A model generated the notes under the pieces. The model was not told the origin of the DNA. It made no database searches and worked only from the letters and a program-made list of their open reading frames with translations. Positions 1-43,822 of a stretch of 43,822 nt of DNA are shown piece after piece. Position numbers and translations under genes: made by a program. How positions within the stretch are numbered: the first letter of the stretch is position 1; each line of letters starts with the position of its first letter. Origin of the DNA: a virus; IMG/VR virus record IMGVR_UViG_3300037487_001578, positions 1 through 43,822 of that record; one strand, given 5' to 3'.

Positions 1-127
1 TCAAACATCTAGCAACTCTACTTCTTATCGTTTGATATTCCATTGCCCGACTACTGCGACCGCTGCATGGTCTTTAAAGTTAGATAATGTTTGTGTGTGC
101 CCTAGCCAGTACGTTTATGGAAGTCCT
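1..127. repeat. Left copy of 127-base direct repeat X (pairs with 43186-43312)
   Basis: Bases 1-127 are identical to 43186-43312; the first mismatch is at base 128 (A against G). Both copies are read in the same frame within a fibre protein and encode the end of its carbohydrate-binding-like domain. The identity marks the upstream border of the exchanged cassette. Confidence 0.97.
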
Positions 128-1387
128 ATGACTGATTTTGCTGGTGTATTAACTGGAAATGTTACTGGTACAACTTCTGGAAGTTTGGCAATCGGTACAG
201 GTGGTGGTGCTACTTATTCAGTTCAAGCAAAACGAATTGGCGATGAGGCAATAGTAAAATATAGCATTCGTGTCGGCACTTCTGGCGCATCGGACGTTGT
301 TGGTGCTTATTTATTTCCATTTCCAACAGGAATAACTCCGGCGACTTTCAGTGTTAACGAAACCCTTGGGTATGGTGACGTGACTGTACAAGCTACAATC
401 AACCCCGCTGCTAGATTGATATGCAAAGCTTTTGGCACTGGTTTCATTGCAGATGTAAATGATGGTCTACTACTTTCTGGCGGTGGTGTATTATTCACTA
501 ATGCTAATGTTACTAGCATGACAATTCGCTATAAAGTACAAGGCTGGTCTTCAAACGTGCAAATGAGTGACTCTGCGGATACTAGGGTTGTTGATTTTAT
601 TGGTGCACAATCATCTCAAGCGGTAACTGCCAATGTAACTAATATTGCGTTCACTACTGTTAAGGACTCACATGGAGTTTGGACTGGTTCGACTTATGTG
701 GTCATTGTGCCAGGTGACTATGTTGTTAATTCCTCATGGTTAACTTCAGGGACTGCGGCTGGAGCTGTTTATAAAGACGCAGCATTTTTTGCTTACCTTG
801 GAACTGGTGGGGCGGCTCAAGCCTTAGCAGGTTCAGCTTTAGTGCCTTGTGTTGCTGGTACAGTTTTATCTGTGCGAAGTACAGGATCGGTAACGGTAAC
901 AAGTGGAGCAATCGGAATTTATCGCCTTTCCGGTCCCAGCGCAATTGCTGCGACTGAGACGGTGGCTTTCTCTGCTTATAACAATGCAAATGTAGACCTT
1001 TCGCCGGAAGATAATACATTAATTCCGTTTATCAATATTTCAGTTAATACCCACAATGTCTTACAATTTGGCGATAGAGTAGTTTTTCCCATAGCGGGCA
1101 CTTACAACATAAATGCAGAAGTTGCTGCTGAGCCTACTATTGGTGGAGTTAATCCACGACAATATTATGTTGTGAGTTTTAAGAAAAATAATTCAGAAAG
1201 TGGCTTACCACCAAATCGACCTATTTATTGGATGGATGGTACTACCCAAAAATCTTTATGGCGAATAAATACAATTATTAAAGTAAAAGCAGGGGATTTT
1301 TTTGAAATTTACGCTTCTTTAGATCAAAATTCAGATGGAATGCTATTTTGGCTAAATAACATTAATATTTCAAAGGTTGGGATGTAA
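2..1387 (+). CDS. Tail fibre / receptor-binding protein, C-terminal part (5' end outside the left edge), cassette variant a
   Basis: The frame is open from base 2 to the TAA at 1385-1387, so the true start is missing. In-frame sequence identical to bases 1-127 lies at 43186-43312 inside the gene starting at 42710, so this is probably the end of that gene across a circular junction (about 620 residues in total). Visible order: the end of a jelly-roll carbohydrate-binding-like domain (to about base 127), a variable beta-rich module (128-541), then a linker beginning GWSSNVQMSD and two beta-rich modules resembling C1q/TNF-type trimer heads ('VVDFIGAQSS...', 'AFSAYNNANVDL...'). Modules of this kind form the host-binding tip of phage fibres. 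That role is inferred from composition and position, not from a database hit. A small fibre accessory gene follows. Confidence 0.7.
   Translation, partial: QTSSNSTSYRLIFHCPTTATAAWSLKLDNVCVCPSQYVYGSPMTDFAGVLTGNVTGTTSGSLAIGTGGGATYSVQAKRIGDEAIVKYSIRVGTSGASDVVGAYLFPFPTGITPATFSVNETLGYGDVTVQATINPAARLICKAFGTGFIADVNDGLLLSGGGVLFTNANVTSMTIRYKVQGWSSNVQMSDSADTRVVDFIGAQSSQAVTANVTNIAFTTVKDSHGVWTGSTYVVIVPGDYVVNSSWLTSGTAAGAVYKDAAFFAYLGTGGAAQALAGSALVPCVAGTVLSVRSTGSVTVTSGAIGIYRLSGPSAIAATETVAFSAYNNANVDLSPEDNTLIPFINISVNTHNVLQFGDRVVFPIAGTYNINAEVAAEPTIGGVNPRQYYVVSFKKNNSESGLPPNRPIYWMDGTTQKSLWRINTIIKVKAGDFFEIYASLDQNSDGMLFWLNNINISKVGM
542..646. repeat. Left copy of direct repeat Y, at least 105 bases (pairs with 43718-43822)
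   Basis: Bases 542-646 are identical to 43718-43822, where the window ends, so the real repeat may be longer. It encodes the linker starting GWSSNVQMSD and the first strands of the C-terminal module. It is the downstream border of the exchanged fibre cassette. Confidence 0.97.
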
Positions 1388-1388
1388 T

Positions 1389-1805
1389 ATGTTTAAAATA
1401 AAAGTTTTTTCTAATAACAGAAAATTTTCAAATACATTTAAAACTGAAATTGAGTGCAATGAATGGTTTTTAGAAACAAATAAAAATGAAGTTTTTGGCA
1501 AACCCGCATACACAGAAATCATCCCAGAGGTCTTAGAAATTAAAGATGAACTGGGTGAAGTGATCCAAACTGCGGTCCCTGCGCATGACATTGTTCACCC
1601 TTCAGAATACACTATCGAAGTGACTGACATCACGGCGCAAGTCTTAGCTGAACAAGCTCAGATTCAAGCTGTGAAAGATGCGCAAACTCAAGCTGGGCTT
1701 AGACTTCAGGCATTTCCTGCCGAAGTAGATACCTGTCAAGATCTTGAATCTTTAAAAGTAGTTATCAAACAAATGGTCCAGGACGTAGCAGTTCTCTTAA
1801 AATAA
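1389..1805 (+). CDS. Probable tail-fibre accessory or assembly protein
   Basis: A 138-residue protein beginning MFKIKVFSNN two bases after the fibre stop codon. I chose the ATG at 1389 over an upstream in-frame ATG (1377) because that one lies inside the fibre gene. The N-terminal half is a compact alpha/beta region (FKIKVFSNNRKFSNTFKTE). The C-terminal half is an alanine- and glutamine-rich helix (AQVLAEQAQIQAVKDAQTQ) likely to be coiled coil. Small genes directly after a fibre gene are often fibre chaperones or accessory proteins. Function here is inferred from position only. Confidence 0.6.
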   Translation: MFKIKVFSNNRKFSNTFKTEIECNEWFLETNKNEVFGKPAYTEIIPEVLEIKDELGEVIQTAVPAHDIVHPSEYTIEVTDITAQVLAEQAQIQAVKDAQTQAGLRLQAFPAEVDTCQDLESLKVVIKQMVQDVAVLLK

Positions 1806-18943: not shown

Positions 18944-19154
18944 TGAAATCCCTCACTTCCTCTGATATGCTTATCATTGCTTTTTTCTCAGGCTTGTAAA
19001 CAAAAGAAAATAGATGACTGAATTTATATCGCACAACTTGTCCATGCTGGAAAAATTCGTTCTTTCCTTTTTGCTCCATCTCCGCTGCAATATCTCGCAA
19101 AATTTGCGGGGTTATTGGCAGCTCATGTAAACTTTCGCACTCATTTATTTTCAT
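18927..19154 (-). CDS. Hypothetical small protein
   Basis: A 75-residue protein, MKINECESLHELPI... with 'ITPQILRDIAAEMEQKGKNEFFQHGQVVRYKFSHLFSFVYKPEKKA'. I use the ATG at 19154, which shares one base with the upstream TGA (TGATG) and is preceded by AGGGGAG; a GTG one codon earlier is too close to that site. It is the third gene whose start lies in the 24-base junction repeat. Function unknown. Confidence 0.6.
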   Translation of the reverse strand: MKINECESLHELPITPQILRDIAAEMEQKGKNEFFQHGQVVRYKFSHLFSFVYKPEKKAMISISEEVRDFNAEHE

Positions 19155-19172
19155 CACTCCCCTGCGCTTTCT
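19149..19172. repeat. Junction repeat, copy A (24 bases)
   Basis: This 24-base sequence also occurs at 19319-19342 and 19877-19900. On the minus strand it contains GCGCAGGGGAGTGATG. It encodes the last residues ESAGE and stop of the upstream gene, and at the same time supplies the AGGGGAG ribosome binding site and overlapping ATG of the downstream gene. Confidence 0.95.
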
Positions 19173-19324
19173 ATTTCTTCAAGTGCTTCTTGAACTATAA
19201 TCCAGTTTTGATCTGAGGTCGGATGTGATATTTTAATTATGTTCAAAACATCTTTAGCTATCTCAAGTTGCTTTTTTAATAATTCGTTTTCATTCCAAAG
19301 TCTAACTTCGTCTTTTGTTTTCAT
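19154..19324 (-). CDS. Small coiled-coil protein, C-terminal motif ESAGE
   Basis: A 56-residue protein, MKTKDEVRLWNENELLKKQ... ending EEALEEIESAGE-like (…ALEEIESAGE). The stretch 'ENELLKKQLEIAKDVLNIIK' is a coiled coil. It closely parallels the C-terminal half of the zinc-ribbon gene at 19882-20148 ('ISELKRQLETAKDTLQEIK' and 'KLESAGE'), so the two are paralogues. The start is within junction-repeat copy B and the stop within copy A. Function unknown; it may form homo- or heteromers with its paralogue. Confidence 0.7.
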   Translation of the reverse strand: MKTKDEVRLWNENELLKKQLEIAKDVLNIIKISHPTSDQNWIIVQEALEEIESAGE

Positions 19325-19342
19325 CACTCCCCTGCGCTTTCT
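19319..19342. repeat. Junction repeat, copy B (24 bases)
   Basis: Identical to copies A and C. Here the upstream gene (the Ser-Arg/Ser-Trp protein) reads the repeat in a different frame and stops at a TAG (19341-19343), so the ESAGE tail is lost. The ribosome binding site and ATG still serve the downstream coiled-coil gene. Confidence 0.95.
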
Positions 19343-19535
19343 AATTAGACCGAGACCGAGACCGAGACCGAGACCAAGACCGAGACCGAGACCGAGACCA
19401 AGAACAAGACCGAGACCAAGAACAAGACCCAGACCAAGACCGAGACCAAGACCCAGACCGAGACCGAGACCAAGACCAAGACCAAGACCAAGACCAAGAC
19501 CGAGACCAACCTTCTCGCATGATTACTGCAGTCAT
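19341..19535 (-). CDS. Low-complexity Ser-Arg/Ser-Trp repeat protein
   Basis: A 64-residue ORF beginning MTAVIMREGW, followed by about 27 Ser-X dipeptides where X is mostly Arg or Trp, with a few Gly and Cys, ending SRSRSRSN. It is encoded by a hexanucleotide repeat. Its ATG shares one base with the TAA of the upstream gene (TAATG on the minus strand), as for its neighbours, which supports translation. After its TAG the DNA is identical to the end of the zinc-ribbon gene but in another frame. The ORF is therefore probably a decayed relative whose body was replaced by repeat expansion. Function, if any, is unknown; Arg-rich repeats could bind RNA or DNA. Confidence 0.45.
   Translation of the reverse strand: MTAVIMREGWSRSWSWSWSWSWSRSRSGSWSRSWSGSCSWSRSCSWSRSRSRSWSRSRSRSRSN
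19347..19508. repeat. Degenerate hexanucleotide tandem repeat, about 27 units
   Basis: On the plus strand the unit is GACCGA or GACCAA, with rarer GAACAA and GACCCA variants, in uninterrupted 6-base phase over about 162 bases. Nearly all variation is at two positions of the unit, mostly G/A transitions. It is open in frames on both strands (Arg-Pro on the plus, Ser-Arg/Ser-Trp on the minus), but only the minus ORF is coupled to neighbouring genes. Repeats of this kind expand and contract by replication slippage. Confidence 0.97.
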
Positions 19536-19882
19536 TATTTTTGCTCTTTAATTAAAATCGGAAAAGGAGTCACGTCCAACATTGCTGATCTGTTTAACAC
19601 GACAGGCGCACAATAAGGCTCTGCTTCTTTATGCTTTCCAGTTTTTAAAAAGTCTGCCCATCTTTCTGTTTCTGCAATCCACGCGGCGTCTTCAATCAGA
19701 AACTCTTGCTCTGATATTGCTAAAAGTCTGCCCGTGTAAATCATTGTGACAAATCTAAAACAATAAATCGTCCCGACTGTCAAAAATGAATGCGCTTTGT
19801 CGCCTTTTGTCCCATCGTCAATTTGTTTTGTTTGTTCTGAATAATATGCTTTTCCATTAACGGTTATCGTTTCTACTTTCAT
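19535..19882 (-). CDS. Hypothetical phage protein
   Basis: A 115-residue protein starting MKVETITVNGKAYY at the ATG at 19882, which shares a base with the TGA of the zinc-ribbon gene and lies behind AGGGGAG in junction-repeat copy C. It is strand-rich, with the segment FVTMIYTGRLLAISEQEFLIEDAAWIAETERW and a C-terminal 'VLNRSAMLDVTPFPI'. I recall this general form (a 'GRL......ltdAawia.t.R' strand pair) in other phage hypothetical proteins. No function is assigned. Confidence 0.65.
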   Translation of the reverse strand: MKVETITVNGKAYYSEQTKQIDDGTKGDKAHSFLTVGTIYCFRFVTMIYTGRLLAISEQEFLIEDAAWIAETERWADFLKTGKHKEAEPYCAPVVLNRSAMLDVTPFPILIKEQK

Positions 19883-19900
19883 CACTCCCCTGCGCTTTCT
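19877..19900. repeat. Junction repeat, copy C (24 bases, 28 shared with copy B)
   Basis: Identical to copies A and B over 24 bases; copies B and C share four further bases (AATT). It encodes the ESAGE end of the zinc-ribbon coiled-coil gene and the ribosome binding site and ATG of the next gene. Confidence 0.95.
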
Positions 19901-20148
19901 AATTTAAACAAGCAGTCGCTAGCCAAATTATAACAAGTAATTTCTGACGATGTTTCATCACCTTGTAACGCTTCAAACTTTATTTCCTGCAAAGTGTCTT
20001 TTGCTGTCTCAAGTTGTCTTTTTAGCTCTGAAATCTCATCATGTAATGCTAAAGTCGGATCGTCGATCTCAACATACCGAACGCCATTGCCGCAGCATTT
20101 CACGCATCCATTGCCGTCGCATGATCTGCATATTACTTGTTTAAACAT
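19882..20148 (-). CDS. Zinc-ribbon plus coiled-coil small protein
   Basis: An 88-residue protein. Residues 7-22 carry C7-x2-C10 and C15-x2-C18-C19 in CRSCDGNGCVKCCGNG, a DnaJ-like zinc-binding arrangement. Residues about 35-60 form a coiled coil (ISELKRQLETAKDTLQEIK), and the protein ends KLESAGE. The coiled-coil half is paralogous to the 56-residue gene at 19154-19324. The start is adjacent to the upstream TAG. It probably binds a protein or nucleic acid partner through the ribbon. Confidence 0.7.
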   Translation of the reverse strand: MFKQVICRSCDGNGCVKCCGNGVRYVEIDDPTLALHDEISELKRQLETAKDTLQEIKFEALQGDETSSEITCYNLASDCLFKLESAGE

Positions 20149-25159: not shown

Positions 25160-25212
25160 TCTCGTATCCTTTTTATTTTCATAGAAGTAATTAAAAATTT
25201 ATTTTGTCTCAT
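25150..25212 (-). CDS. Micro-ORF, truncated duplicate of the following MRQNKF gene
   Basis: A 20-residue frame starting MRQNKFLITSMKIK. Its first seven residues equal those of the 71-residue gene at 25265-25480. The ATG overlaps the TGA of the DDWTEL micro-ORF before it, exactly as in the intact copy. The identical DNA spans about 38 bases with one mismatch. It is most likely a remnant of a duplication. Whether it is translated is unknown. Confidence 0.35.
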   Translation of the reverse strand: MRQNKFLITSMKIKRIREGL

Positions 25213-25268
25213 AGTTCGGTCCAATCATCCGGGAAGTCAGCGCGAAAGTCTTTTATGGTGTATTTCAT
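25209..25268 (-). CDS. 19-residue micro-ORF ending DDWTEL
   Basis: MKYTIKDFRADFPDDWTEL, with an ATG that overlaps the TGA of the preceding gene (ATGA). The last six residues are also the end of the 11-residue ORF at 25477-25512. The coupling and the conserved ending support a real leader or micro-gene. Function unknown. Confidence 0.4.
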   Translation of the reverse strand: MKYTIKDFRADFPDDWTEL

Positions 25269-25480
25269 GCGGCACCTACTTTCATAAGGTCAGCAATTCG
25301 CGTTGATAATTTCTTGCTCAGTTCATTGTCTTTTTTAGAGGCTTTAACTATTAAATATCCAGCGCCACAACGCTTGTTAGAAACTTTGGTTTTTACCTTC
25401 GGCAAATCCTCACGAACTATTCTAGCAATTTCTTTTCGCGCCTGTTTTTTAGCATACTTTAAAAATTTATTTTGTCTCAT
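25265..25480 (-). CDS. Small basic protein
   Basis: A 71-residue lysine/arginine-rich protein, MRQNKFLKYAKKQARKEIARI, using the ATG at 25480 that overlaps the TGA of the DDWTEL ORF. A longer TTG-start frame is less likely. It continues 'VREDLPKVKTKVSNKRCGAGYLIVKASKKDNELSKKLSTRIADL'. Its size and charge suit a nucleic-acid-binding early protein, but no family is recognised. Confidence 0.6.
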   Translation of the reverse strand: MRQNKFLKYAKKQARKEIARIVREDLPKVKTKVSNKRCGAGYLIVKASKKDNELSKKLSTRIADLMKVGAA

Positions 25481-25512
25481 AATTCGGTCCAATCATCTTT
25501 ATTTTCTTGCAT
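25477..25512 (-). CDS. 11-residue micro-ORF MQENKDDWTEL
   Basis: The ATG at 25512 lies behind GAGGTGC, a good ribosome binding site, and the TGA overlaps the ATG of the basic protein. It shares DDWTEL with the micro-ORF at 25209-25268. A start at 25545 would give 22 residues. It may act as a translational coupler. Confidence 0.35.
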   Translation of the reverse strand: MQENKDDWTEL

Positions 25513-39933: not shown

Positions 39934-40176
39934 ATGGTCGGAGATGTAATCAATAATAGAAGTTCATTATTAAAGTCTCATCAGCATGAGTATGTCAAAA
40001 GCTATACAGAATTTGATGCTTATGGAAGACTTGATAAACTTCATCAAACAACAAGTACGGCAAAAAACGGAGATCCAACAGTAGTTACTCAATATGCGTA
40101 TGTTGGGACTACTTCTCAAGTTGTATACATGAAAGAATATGAAGGCACCTGGGTATCAATATGGGAGTTATTCTAA
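39934..40176 (+). CDS. Hypothetical small structural protein
   Basis: An 80-residue protein, MVGDVINNRSSLLKSHQHEY, behind GCGAGGAATTT. It is rich in strands and Tyr: 'TQYAYVGTTSQVVYMKEYEGTWVSIWELF'. Its TAA overlaps the ATG of the next fibre gene by one base. A similar 'Y.G....v...E....W...we' form is seen in small proteins next to phage fibre genes. It may be a fibre-base connector. Confidence 0.55.
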   Translation: MVGDVINNRSSLLKSHQHEYVKSYTEFDAYGRLDKLHQTTSTAKNGDPTVVTQYAYVGTTSQVVYMKEYEGTWVSIWELF

Positions 40177-42701
40177 TGGGGGGCGCATTTTCAAAACATA
40201 GATTTCAAATTTGGAATAGTAATCAGCATCCTTATAAACATAGCACAAGTGAGTTTTCCTATTCAAACGGCGTAGTACCAGGAGTAAGTTCTGTTACAGA
40301 CGTATTAGATTACATCTTAGCCGTATTATATCCTCTTAGCCAGGCAAGTATTCCTACTAAAGCAGATTTGCCTGTAACAGCGACTTTTGTAGCGACTATA
40401 GGTTCTCCTGCGGTGATTGCTTTAACTGGCAATAAATACTACACAGGAGACCAAGTAAAACTTACTACAACTGGTACTTTACCAGCGGGTTTGAGTGTTT
40501 CTAATGTTTACTACTTAAAAGAAACAACAACTAATACTTTCCAAGTTTTCTCTGACAAAAATCTTCTAGTCCCCGTAGCTATTAGCACTACTGGATCAGG
40601 CGTTCATTCTGTAGTCAATTTACCTAACTCATACAGAGTGGTTTTAGATGATGGAGACGGTAAAGCAGCAGCATATAGATATGAAAAACGAGAAGGCGAT
40701 GTTGCTTATATTTGGTACAAAGTAGGTGATTTAGACTGGGGACAAGACTCAGTATTAACTGCCTTTGAAAATATCACACAAGATTTGTATATATACAAAC
40801 AAGGTAAGGATGACCGTGATGCTACTGGAGCTGTACTTACTGGAGATCAAGCTGGACAACACGTATATGGTGGTGCTTCAGCCAACACGAACCTCATTCT
40901 TCATGCGAATAGTGGAGATGGTACGGGAGCACAGACAGGAGCAATTGAAGTAGCCGACCCTATTCTTCCTTTAGTTAATACACTATCACTAGGATCATTA
41001 ACTAAGAAATTTGTAGATTTATTCTTAAGTGGAAATATTAAAGTTAGTACAATGACTATAACTGGTGGGTCTATTACTGACACCACAGGAGCAATTAGTT
41101 TTGATAATGAAAATCTTACAACTACTGGAAATGTAACTGGTAATACTGTAGGTGGGACAACTGTAACCGCAGGAAATTTATCTTTATCAGCAAGTCAGAT
41201 TACTTCATCGGCAACTGATATTTCTTTTGGATCAAATAAAATAAAAACTACAGGTGATGTAGAGGGTTTAAATTTAATTGCTAAAAATGGAGTTAAAACA
41301 ACTACTATTAGCAATGGTACAACAGATACTACTCTTACTTCAAGCCAAGGATCTTTTGATCTTCAAAATGCAAATTTAAAAGGTATTAATGCGCTTACTT
41401 CAACGAGTGCAGCAGCAGGTTCTATTACTGTTGATAATCTTACACTTGATGTTAACATTATTTCTTCTACTACTGATATTAATGTATCTCCAGCAGTAGG
41501 TTCAAAAGTTAAGCTTAACAAGTCTACAGATGTTACGGGGGCATTAGCTGCTACTGGTGCAGTATCAGGACTTACGGTATCTGATGGGCACACTACTCTT
41601 GATGGATCTAAGATCACATCTACAACTGGGTTCGTTGATGTTGATTCTTCTAAAGTTTTACGAGCAGGAAACATTGAAGGATCTGATGTTAAGGCAACGA
41701 CTTTAACAGCAGGTCTTGTATCAGAAAATGTAGCTGACATTGTGGATTTTCCATTCACAGGTGCCTCTGAAGGAAACACTATATTTTATCAATCTGGTCA
41801 TTGGGTAGCAGGTGCCCCAAGTCCCGGAGTAACAGACCACGGAGCATTGACTGGTCTTGCTTACGACGACCACACTCAGTATGCTCTTTTAGCGGGAAGA
41901 ACTGGTGGTCAAAATATCGTAGGAGGTACAGCAGCAGCAGATGTACTTACTTTAAAATCAAATGCAGCAGCAGCCAAAGAAATTAAGACAAAGGATACAG
42001 TAGCTCCATTTACCGATGCTACTTATTCTGGTGGATGGACTGGTCTTGATTTAGGTACAGCATCTTTAAACTTTAAAGACATATATACTAAAGGTGAGCA
42101 TAAAGGCCTACGTTTAGAAAATGTAGCAACACTTCCAGCAGCGAACGTAGTAAATATAGGAAGAACTGTCTTCCTTACTTCTGATAATAAGATTTACTAC
42201 GATACTGGTGGAGCATGGGTCGCTATTCCTTTAACAGCGGGTACAGCAAGCCCTTTGACTACTAAGGGTGACATTTATGTTTTTTCAACTACCAATGCAA
42301 GACTTCCAATAGGTACAGACGGGCAAGTGCTGGTTGCTGATTCAACACAAACAACAGGCCTTAATTGGACAAATGGCGTAAGTGAATTTATTAGTTCAAG
42401 TTTATCACTCACTGCAGGTGGTTCAATTTCAATTCAAACTACCTACAAACTGCAAACTTGGTTAGTTGCTGGCACCTCGGCTGTAAGTTTATCAACAACA
42501 CCATTTGGAGCAACAGCTCCGGTCGATGGCGCAGTCATTGTGTTGATTGGGAATGATGACACCAACACTGTGAATGTTGTCGCTAATGATGCCTCAAAGG
42601 GTGTGCTTGGGTATGACTACACTCTGGCAAGGGGCCAGACTATAACTTACAAATACAATACAACACTTGACCGATATGTCATTGTTGGAACTTCTAACTA
42701 G
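40176..42701 (+). CDS. Large tail fibre protein
   Basis: An 841-residue protein starting at the ATG at 40176, spaced correctly after GGGAG; an earlier in-frame ATG (40161) lies inside the previous gene. The N-terminal domain (VTDVLDYILAVLYP..., 'VTATFVATIGSPAVIALTGNKYYTG') is followed by a long Thr/Ser/Gly-rich shaft (residues about 270-520) with the repeated pattern 'T.GN..G.t...G.l...a..I.SS'. Later come the linker 'DHGALTGLAYDDHTQYALLAG', the segment 'TTKGDIYVFSTTNARLPIGTDGQVLVAD' and a small beta-domain. These features are standard in phage side-fibres that contact host surface sugars. Confidence 0.8.
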   Translation: MGGAFSKHRFQIWNSNQHPYKHSTSEFSYSNGVVPGVSSVTDVLDYILAVLYPLSQASIPTKADLPVTATFVATIGSPAVIALTGNKYYTGDQVKLTTTGTLPAGLSVSNVYYLKETTTNTFQVFSDKNLLVPVAISTTGSGVHSVVNLPNSYRVVLDDGDGKAAAYRYEKREGDVAYIWYKVGDLDWGQDSVLTAFENITQDLYIYKQGKDDRDATGAVLTGDQAGQHVYGGASANTNLILHANSGDGTGAQTGAIEVADPILPLVNTLSLGSLTKKFVDLFLSGNIKVSTMTITGGSITDTTGAISFDNENLTTTGNVTGNTVGGTTVTAGNLSLSASQITSSATDISFGSNKIKTTGDVEGLNLIAKNGVKTTTISNGTTDTTLTSSQGSFDLQNANLKGINALTSTSAAAGSITVDNLTLDVNIISSTTDINVSPAVGSKVKLNKSTDVTGALAATGAVSGLTVSDGHTTLDGSKITSTTGFVDVDSSKVLRAGNIEGSDVKATTLTAGLVSENVADIVDFPFTGASEGNTIFYQSGHWVAGAPSPGVTDHGALTGLAYDDHTQYALLAGRTGGQNIVGGTAAADVLTLKSNAAAAKEIKTKDTVAPFTDATYSGGWTGLDLGTASLNFKDIYTKGEHKGLRLENVATLPAANVVNIGRTVFLTSDNKIYYDTGGAWVAIPLTAGTASPLTTKGDIYVFSTTNARLPIGTDGQVLVADSTQTTGLNWTNGVSEFISSSLSLTAGGSISIQTTYKLQTWLVAGTSAVSLSTTPFGATAPVDGAVIVLIGNDDTNTVNVVANDASKGVLGYDYTLARGQTITYKYNTTLDRYVIVGTSN

Positions 42702-42709
42702 AGGTAAAA

Positions 42710-43822
42710 ATGTCCAGAATAATTGCTCTTGATAACATTGAGGGTCTTGCAACAAATAAGAATTATATTAAAAACGGAAAAGCTGAAAAAAACACTTTTG
42801 GTTTTGCCACCTATGCAGATGCCGTAGGTGTCTTTCCAGTCGACGGAATCGGAGGCACGCCGACTCATATTACCTTTTCAACAACAACAACAACACCGCT
42901 TGGAGATGTTGGCTCATTTTTAATTACAAATTCAGGATCAACTTCAGCGCAAGGTGAGGGTGCATCTTATAACTTTACGATAGATGCAAAAGACAAAGCG
43001 AAAGTTTTACAAATTAGTTTCGATTATATTGTAAACTCAGGCACTTTCGTTGCTGGATCTACAGGCGTTGATTCAGGCATTGAGGTTTACATTTACGATG
43101 TGACCAATGCACAGATAATACAGCCTTCTAGCTATAAGTTGTTATCTAATAGCACGTCTATTGCTGATAAATTCAACGGAACATTTCAAACATCTAGCAA
43201 CTCTACTTCTTATCGTTTGATATTCCATTGCCCGACTACTGCGACCGCTGCATGGTCTTTAAAGTTAGATAATGTTTGTGTGTGCCCTAGCCAGTACGTT
43301 TATGGAAGTCCTGTGACGGATTGGAAAACATTTACACCAACTGGCTCATGGACCACTAATACAACATATACAGGAAGATGGAGGCGCGTTGGCGATTCCA
43401 TGCACCTTCAAGTTTCTTTGTCTTTAACAGGTGCACCAACAGCCACGGCACTGGGGATTAACTTACCAAACGGATATGTAATAGATACGGCAAAATTGGC
43501 AGATACAAGCGGAGATACTCATCAACTTGGAATAGCAGGGTTCGTCGATAGTGGGACTTTGGCATTAATAAATGGTAAAATAATTTTCGGTTCAACTAAC
43601 CAAGTTAATGTTTATGGTACAACAAATGTCGGAGCAAATGGACAGGTAACTCATTTATTCCCTTTTACTTTTGGAGCACTTGATAGAGTTGCATGTATGT
43701 TTGAAGTCCCCATCCTCGGCTGGTCTTCAAACGTGCAAATGAGTGACTCTGCGGATACTAGGGTTGTTGATTTTATTGGTGCACAATCATCTCAAGCGGT
43801 AACTGCCAATGTAACTAATATT
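42710..43822 (+). CDS. Tail fibre / receptor-binding protein, N-terminal part (3' end beyond the right edge), cassette variant b
   Basis: The frame starts at the ATG at 42710 behind GAGGTAAAA and stays open for 371 codons to the window end. Residues about 1-200 (IIALDNIEGLATNKNYIKNG..., 'VLQISFDYIVNSGTFVAG', 'STSYRLIFHCPTTATAAW') form a jelly-roll domain of the carbohydrate-binding type common in phage fibres. The variable module (bases 43313-43717) reads 'DWKTFTPTGSWTTNTTYTGRWRRVGDSMHLQV...'. Then comes the linker GWSSNVQMSD, shared with the gene at the left edge. Joined across the circle the full protein would be about 617 residues. Confidence 0.8.
   Translation, partial: MSRIIALDNIEGLATNKNYIKNGKAEKNTFGFATYADAVGVFPVDGIGGTPTHITFSTTTTTPLGDVGSFLITNSGSTSAQGEGASYNFTIDAKDKAKVLQISFDYIVNSGTFVAGSTGVDSGIEVYIYDVTNAQIIQPSSYKLLSNSTSIADKFNGTFQTSSNSTSYRLIFHCPTTATAAWSLKLDNVCVCPSQYVYGSPVTDWKTFTPTGSWTTNTTYTGRWRRVGDSMHLQVSLSLTGAPTATALGINLPNGYVIDTAKLADTSGDTHQLGIAGFVDSGTLALINGKIIFGSTNQVNVYGTTNVGANGQVTHLFPFTFGALDRVACMFEVPILGWSSNVQMSDSADTRVVDFIGAQSSQAVTANVTNI
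43186..43312. repeat. Right copy of 127-base direct repeat X
   Basis: Identical to bases 1-127; divergence starts immediately after, at 43313 against 128. It encodes the end of the carbohydrate-binding-like domain, directly upstream of cassette variant b. Confidence 0.97.
43718..43822. repeat. Right copy of direct repeat Y, cut by the window end
   Basis: Identical to bases 542-646 up to the last base of the window. It resumes shared coding sequence after cassette variant b and fixes the downstream border of the swap. Confidence 0.97.

Follow-up and report, generated by a model that had tools for sequence, protein, structure and literature searches.

A probable assembly-graph bubble with two fibre-gene alleles at the ends of an uncultured phage contig

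The fibre locus at the two contig ends

The window, by which we mean the whole stretch of 43,822 nucleotides that was analysed (IMG/VR record IMGVR_UViG_3300037487_001578, classed as linear), holds parts of one gene at both of its ends and in the same frame: 42710-43822, which is 3'-open, and 2-1387, which is 5'-open. These parts are referred to as allele B and allele A, and by arithmetic the full-length alleles would count 617 and 620 residues, respectively. The gene closes the structural module and follows an 846-aa fibre-like gene for which no Pfam or PHROG match was found; the small gene downstream possibly encodes a fibre-assembly protein, judging from its position. The locus contains:

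40161..42701, + strand: long fibre-like gene, 846 aa, directly upstream of the fibre locus
42710..43822, + strand: fibre gene allele B, 5' part (N-domain, linker, module B and the next 35 residues), open at the contig end
43186..43312, + strand: left flank, second occurrence, exact match to 1..127
43313..43717, + strand: module B, variable middle slot, 405 bases, with an RRVGD hairpin; predicted beta-sandwich (pLDDT 90.8)
43718..43822, + strand: right flank, second occurrence, stops at the contig end
1..127, + strand: left flank, first occurrence, exactly 127 bases, the assembly k-mer and the graph vertex before the probable bubble
2..1387, + strand: fibre gene allele A, 3' part (end of the N-domain, module A, linker and two C1q-like domains), open at the contig start
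128..541, + strand: module A, variable middle slot, 414 bases, with a KRIGD hairpin
542..646, + strand: right flank, first occurrence, carries the conserved linker GWSSNVQMSDSADTRVV
1377..1805, + strand: small gene, longest ORF 142 aa, directly downstream of the fibre gene

Direct comparison over the whole window showed that bases 1-127 are identical to 43186-43312, with the first mismatch at 128/43313, and that 542-646 equals 43718-43822 without mismatch, over 105 bases that reach the contig end. The shared bases thus total 232 with zero mismatches, and between them lie 414 bases (128-541) and 405 bases (43313-43717) that are both in frame and differ throughout. No other long perfect non-tandem repeats were found in the window, and the identity of these end repeats is far beyond chance. 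The perfect flanks around in-frame modules that the first-pass annotation had described were therefore exact on recomparison, with the correction that GWSSN, given there as the end of both modules, sits in the shared right flank and outside the modules.

Zero mismatches in 232 bases around a middle that is unrelated at the DNA level fit one backbone with two alleles, and we consider it very probable that the contig ends derive from an assembly-graph bubble at the fibre gene of a circular phage genome, with both alleles present in one population. The window would then represent a nearly complete genome, circular or circularly permuted and some 43.18 kb round, from an uncultured phage whose tail-fibre gene would occur in at least two alleles within the sampled population, probably from two strains. 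The assembler would have left the shared backbone along one allele and re-entered it along the other, which would account for why each contig end bears one of them. The alleles would differ by the clean replacement of a single middle domain of ~135 residues, bounded by a 'TD' linker and the linker 'GWSSNVQMSDSADTRVV', after which two C1q-like domains follow.

A chimeric contig, in which the B end would come from another phage species that chances to share the flanks, is very improbable. Chimeras do occur in metagenome assemblies and the linker is conserved across many phages, but even close pairs of relatives have linker DNA that is diverged, at 77-88% over 57 bases, unlike the window flanks with their identity over 127 and 105 bases. 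In addition, the B side is in frame with the fibre N-domain and comes directly after the upstream structural genes.

Flank lengths, contig ends and gene copies

The contig starts exactly 127 bases ahead of the divergence point, and two circular IMG/VR contigs with the same fibre family (G044 and G019), which together form the calibration of 127 as a k-mer length, have exact 127-base end overlaps. According to the CheckV paper, many of the end repeats seen in circular viruses after assembly are odd in length, likely equal assembler k-mers and arise on the breaking of a circular template (PMC8116208). On these grounds 127 is the assembly k-mer length, and the left flank marks a graph vertex and is no biological repeat; its length is consequently uninformative on the homology needed for swapping. 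The locus had initially been read as a homology-flanked swap of a host-range module. The allelic swap at one probable receptor-binding locus is supported, whereas the biological meaning attached to the 127-base flank falls away as a k-mer artefact.

The right overlap counts 105 bases and not 127, so that the bubble reading needs one extra assumption, for which our guess is either trimming of the contig end or a third allele or path with the same final 22 bases as module B. If the contig ends on a 127-base vertex, this vertex starts at 43696, 22 bases inside module B (105 + 22 = 127), and a third path would share precisely those 22 bases, which encode a family-conserved 'F.VPI' strand. Searches of the viral contigs for the exact left-flank DNA and for a degenerate right-linker pattern recovered no third allele, in a collection from which near-window records may be absent. 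In 10 of 45 relatives the fibre linker was no more than 750 bp away from a contig end, where 3.3 were expected (p ~0.0007), and for contigs of at least 10 kb it was near a contig end in 8 against 2.4 expected (p ~0.002); such an excess is expected if the locus is polymorphic.

A k-mer breakpoint arises from a polymorphic bubble and from a tandem repeat alike and hence does not discriminate between the two by itself. The tandem arrangement, which the first-pass annotation had named as the alternative, would put two complete fibre genes on every molecule, by a recent duplication after which the middle domain was replaced in one copy, and the assembler would have broken within the repeat. With a de Bruijn assembler the break would indeed fall at the same point, 127 bases ahead of where the copies diverge. 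There is also a related phage group with two fibre genes on each contig, which have the module region in common (94% identity over 1315 bp). However, the common parts would have to be perfectly identical next to a module that is unrelated in DNA. Moreover, counting with a family HMM of the linker plus the C1q-like region gave one fibre ORF per locus in the fetched relatives and two adjacent ORFs in none, the only two-copy records have their copies at a spacing of 38,262 bp, and a single copy is present in the complete relative MW202898.1 and in both circular contigs with the 127-base overlap. The perfect flanks around a DNA-unrelated middle, the lack of adjacent fibre ORFs in the relatives and the precedent of Bellas et al. 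(see below) favour the bubble, and we grade the tandem arrangement as unlikely.

The middle slot in the fibre family

We collected the relatives by a scan of the viral contigs for the motif QMSxxxDTRVV, which yielded 49 stretches in 47 records. Nearly all complete members have the same architecture: an N-domain that ends in 'GPQ..Y(G)xPVTDW', a variable middle slot, the linker GWSSxVQMSxxxDTRVV (in its typical form 'GWSSxVQMSNDTDTRVV') and two C1q-like domains. In the window protein the family HMM recovered two C1q-like repeats (E 1e-30 and 4e-8); no Pfam C1q match was found in this protein, and the Pfam C1q cut-off was passed by two of the relatives (L035 and L009).

Among 44 pairs of relatives with upstream DNA similarity extending as far as the linker, 39 lose it around the 'TD' codons at the 5' edge of the slot, in most cases 0-25 bases past them; the pairs are not independent because a single relative takes part in many of them. 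The pair L005 and L012 illustrates this: 89% identity upstream, 46% in the middle and the first C1q-like domain, 77% in the linker and 91% further downstream. In L025 and L028 it is the middle that is shared (96%) and the first C1q-like region that differs (53%), which points to a second exchange slot behind the linker. The content of the slot varies as well: in L046 (4760-5300) a phage tail-collar domain (Pfam Collar, 78.6 bits) lies between the linkers, and in L027 the slot is occupied by a glycine-rich stretch.

The two modules of the window had been called unrelated, which does not hold at the protein level. Module A scored 30.1 bits against a family profile that was built without module A and with the linkers removed, against 9.9 bits for the best of 1000 shuffles, and as judged from these profile scores modules A and B belong to a single domain family, within which they have diverged. 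The (K/R)R(I/V)GD hairpin noticed in both modules is real and marks homology, beyond an analogous fold. Folding of both modules by a predictor, as had been proposed, was successful for one of them: AlphaFold2 gave a confident beta-sandwich for module B (pLDDT 90.8) and a low-confidence model for module A (pLDDT 52.8). The shared fold therefore rests on sequence homology; the strand order of A and B agrees, which adds weak support.

The closest solved structures to module B were mostly receptor-binding heads, namely reovirus sigmaC, a phage tailspike (6f7k) and adenovirus knobs, all as weak matches (best PDB E 6e-3, the others above; TM 0.44-0.50). Against predicted viral structures module B had much better matches, to uncharacterised phage proteins (E 2.5e-10, TM 0.77), and the profile had no significant sequence match to solved structures. 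Given the weak fibre-head matches of module B and the poor model of module A, we take it as a well-grounded inference from family and fold that the variable domain contacts the host receptor. The breaks of DNA similarity at the same linkers throughout the family, together with the weakly fibre-head-like fold of module B, support the allelic swap.

A probable tropism locus with two in-frame cassettes resembles a switch, and programmed switching, from a stored cassette or by self-made diversity (an invertible segment, a cassette array or a diversity-generating retroelement), is a tempting reading, with meaningful 127-base repeats. Six-frame comparison recovered no second copy of module A or B in the window, nor any additional copy of the linkers, and there are no inverted repeats flanking the cassettes. 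At E 0.001 the window has no match to a reverse transcriptase (RVT_1), a serine resolvase or a tyrosine integrase, and the differences between the modules run throughout and are not confined to scattered positions. A diversity-generating retroelement was rejected for want of an RVT_1 match and a second module copy in the window, and an invertible or shufflon-type tropism switch for want of a resolvase or integrase, flanking inverted repeats or a stored copy there. Programmed switching is thus hardly credible at this locus, and a partner module stored in the genome finds no support; the partner would most likely be stored in the population.

Swapping by recombination is supported, and programmed switching is not. 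The simplest route of exchange is general recombination between co-infecting relatives: the two alleles may have originated when such relatives recombined, homologously or homeologously, at the linker DNA, and selection on host range may maintain them. The two conserved linkers are thereby indicated as the means by which this fibre family trades its probable binding domain. A broader reading, which we put forward tentatively and hold at slightly under even chances, is that TD and GWSSxVQMSxxxDTRVV are standing recombination ports in a widespread fibre family, through which many uncultured phages trade plug-in binding domains, with several alleles per population; the traded domains would be divergent fibre-head-like modules and even a tail-collar domain.

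Comparable loci and other features of the window

The case of the window resembles the 'metaviromic islands' that have been published for tail-fibre and C1q receptor-binding proteins, and the coexistence of such alleles is a recognised means by which phages vary their binding. Mizuno et al. (2014) reported that C1q genes rank with the most frequent identifiable genes of such islands in marine phages, which were defined by under-recruitment of reads while the remaining genome recruits near 100% (PMC3909814). As is probable for the window, coexisting near-identical phages differ there in host-recognition genes, C1q-domain genes included, and the recognition part of the gene varies while the rest is shared. 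The islands were defined via reads, whereas here the two alleles are seen directly at contig level, on a single contig that bears the k-mer mark of a bubble; unlike in the islands, the variable part is the domain that precedes the C1q-like domains.

Bellas et al. (2020), in their work on the flexible-gene pan-genomes of cryoconite phages, described that the assembler halts at regions with competing variants, that up to five variants of one gene coexist in a metagenome and that three of four variants of a C1q putative receptor-binding gene were co-present (PMC7468147). These phages resemble the window, on the bubble reading, in their co-present C1q receptor-binding variants, in the contigs that are broken at this place and in the recombination that was proposed. 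Their variants were rebuilt from reads, whereas the window presents a single-domain slot with defined linkers that was resolved by comparing relatives.

The fibre of podovirus ct8d5349 (MW202898.1, annotated as 'caprin-2 domain protein') has the same architecture, with an N-domain, a middle module, the linker GWGSTTQMSDSTDTRVV and two C1q-like domains, and follows a tail fibre gene, the same place as in the window. It shares 41% identity with allele B over 346 alignment columns (N-domain and module) and ~27% with the allele A fragment; the complete genome holds this one fibre copy and differs from the window in gene content.

No other record of the phage with either allele was found in the viral contigs, where near-identical records may be absent, and terminase, fibre or fibre C-terminus recovered no close relatives there, nor did the terminase among annotated phages. 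Relatives in prokaryote genomes were limited to one MAG contig, which provides no host name, and no tRNA was found in the window. Phage host-recognition genes are the most variable and are badly assembled, so that databases under-report their alleles; a single contig can nevertheless reveal two of them, and a k-mer check flags such flanks as assembly marks.

Several further repeats were observed. Related phage-like contigs of 70 and 104 kb (L033/L076 and L008/L078 (record G004), and also G002 and L041) carry two fibre genes at the above spacing, which are 94% identical over ~1.3 kb (middle module and C1q-like region) and have different N-domains; this sequence pattern suggests exchange between copies inside one genome. 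In the window, 19347-19520 is a long imperfect hexanucleotide array (AGACCG/AGACCA) with ORFs on both strands, encoding Arg-Pro repeats on the plus strand and Trp-Ser/Arg-Ser repeats on the minus strand. A 36-base sequence occurs in three copies that are 83-92% alike (19141-19176, 19311-19346 and 19869-19904), at or near the starts of minus-strand ORFs, and these resemble a repeated ribosome-binding and start region (GGGGAGTGATGAAA). Finally, 25191-25229 and 25459-25497 are direct copies of 39 bases, 97% identical, with a spacing of 268 bases.
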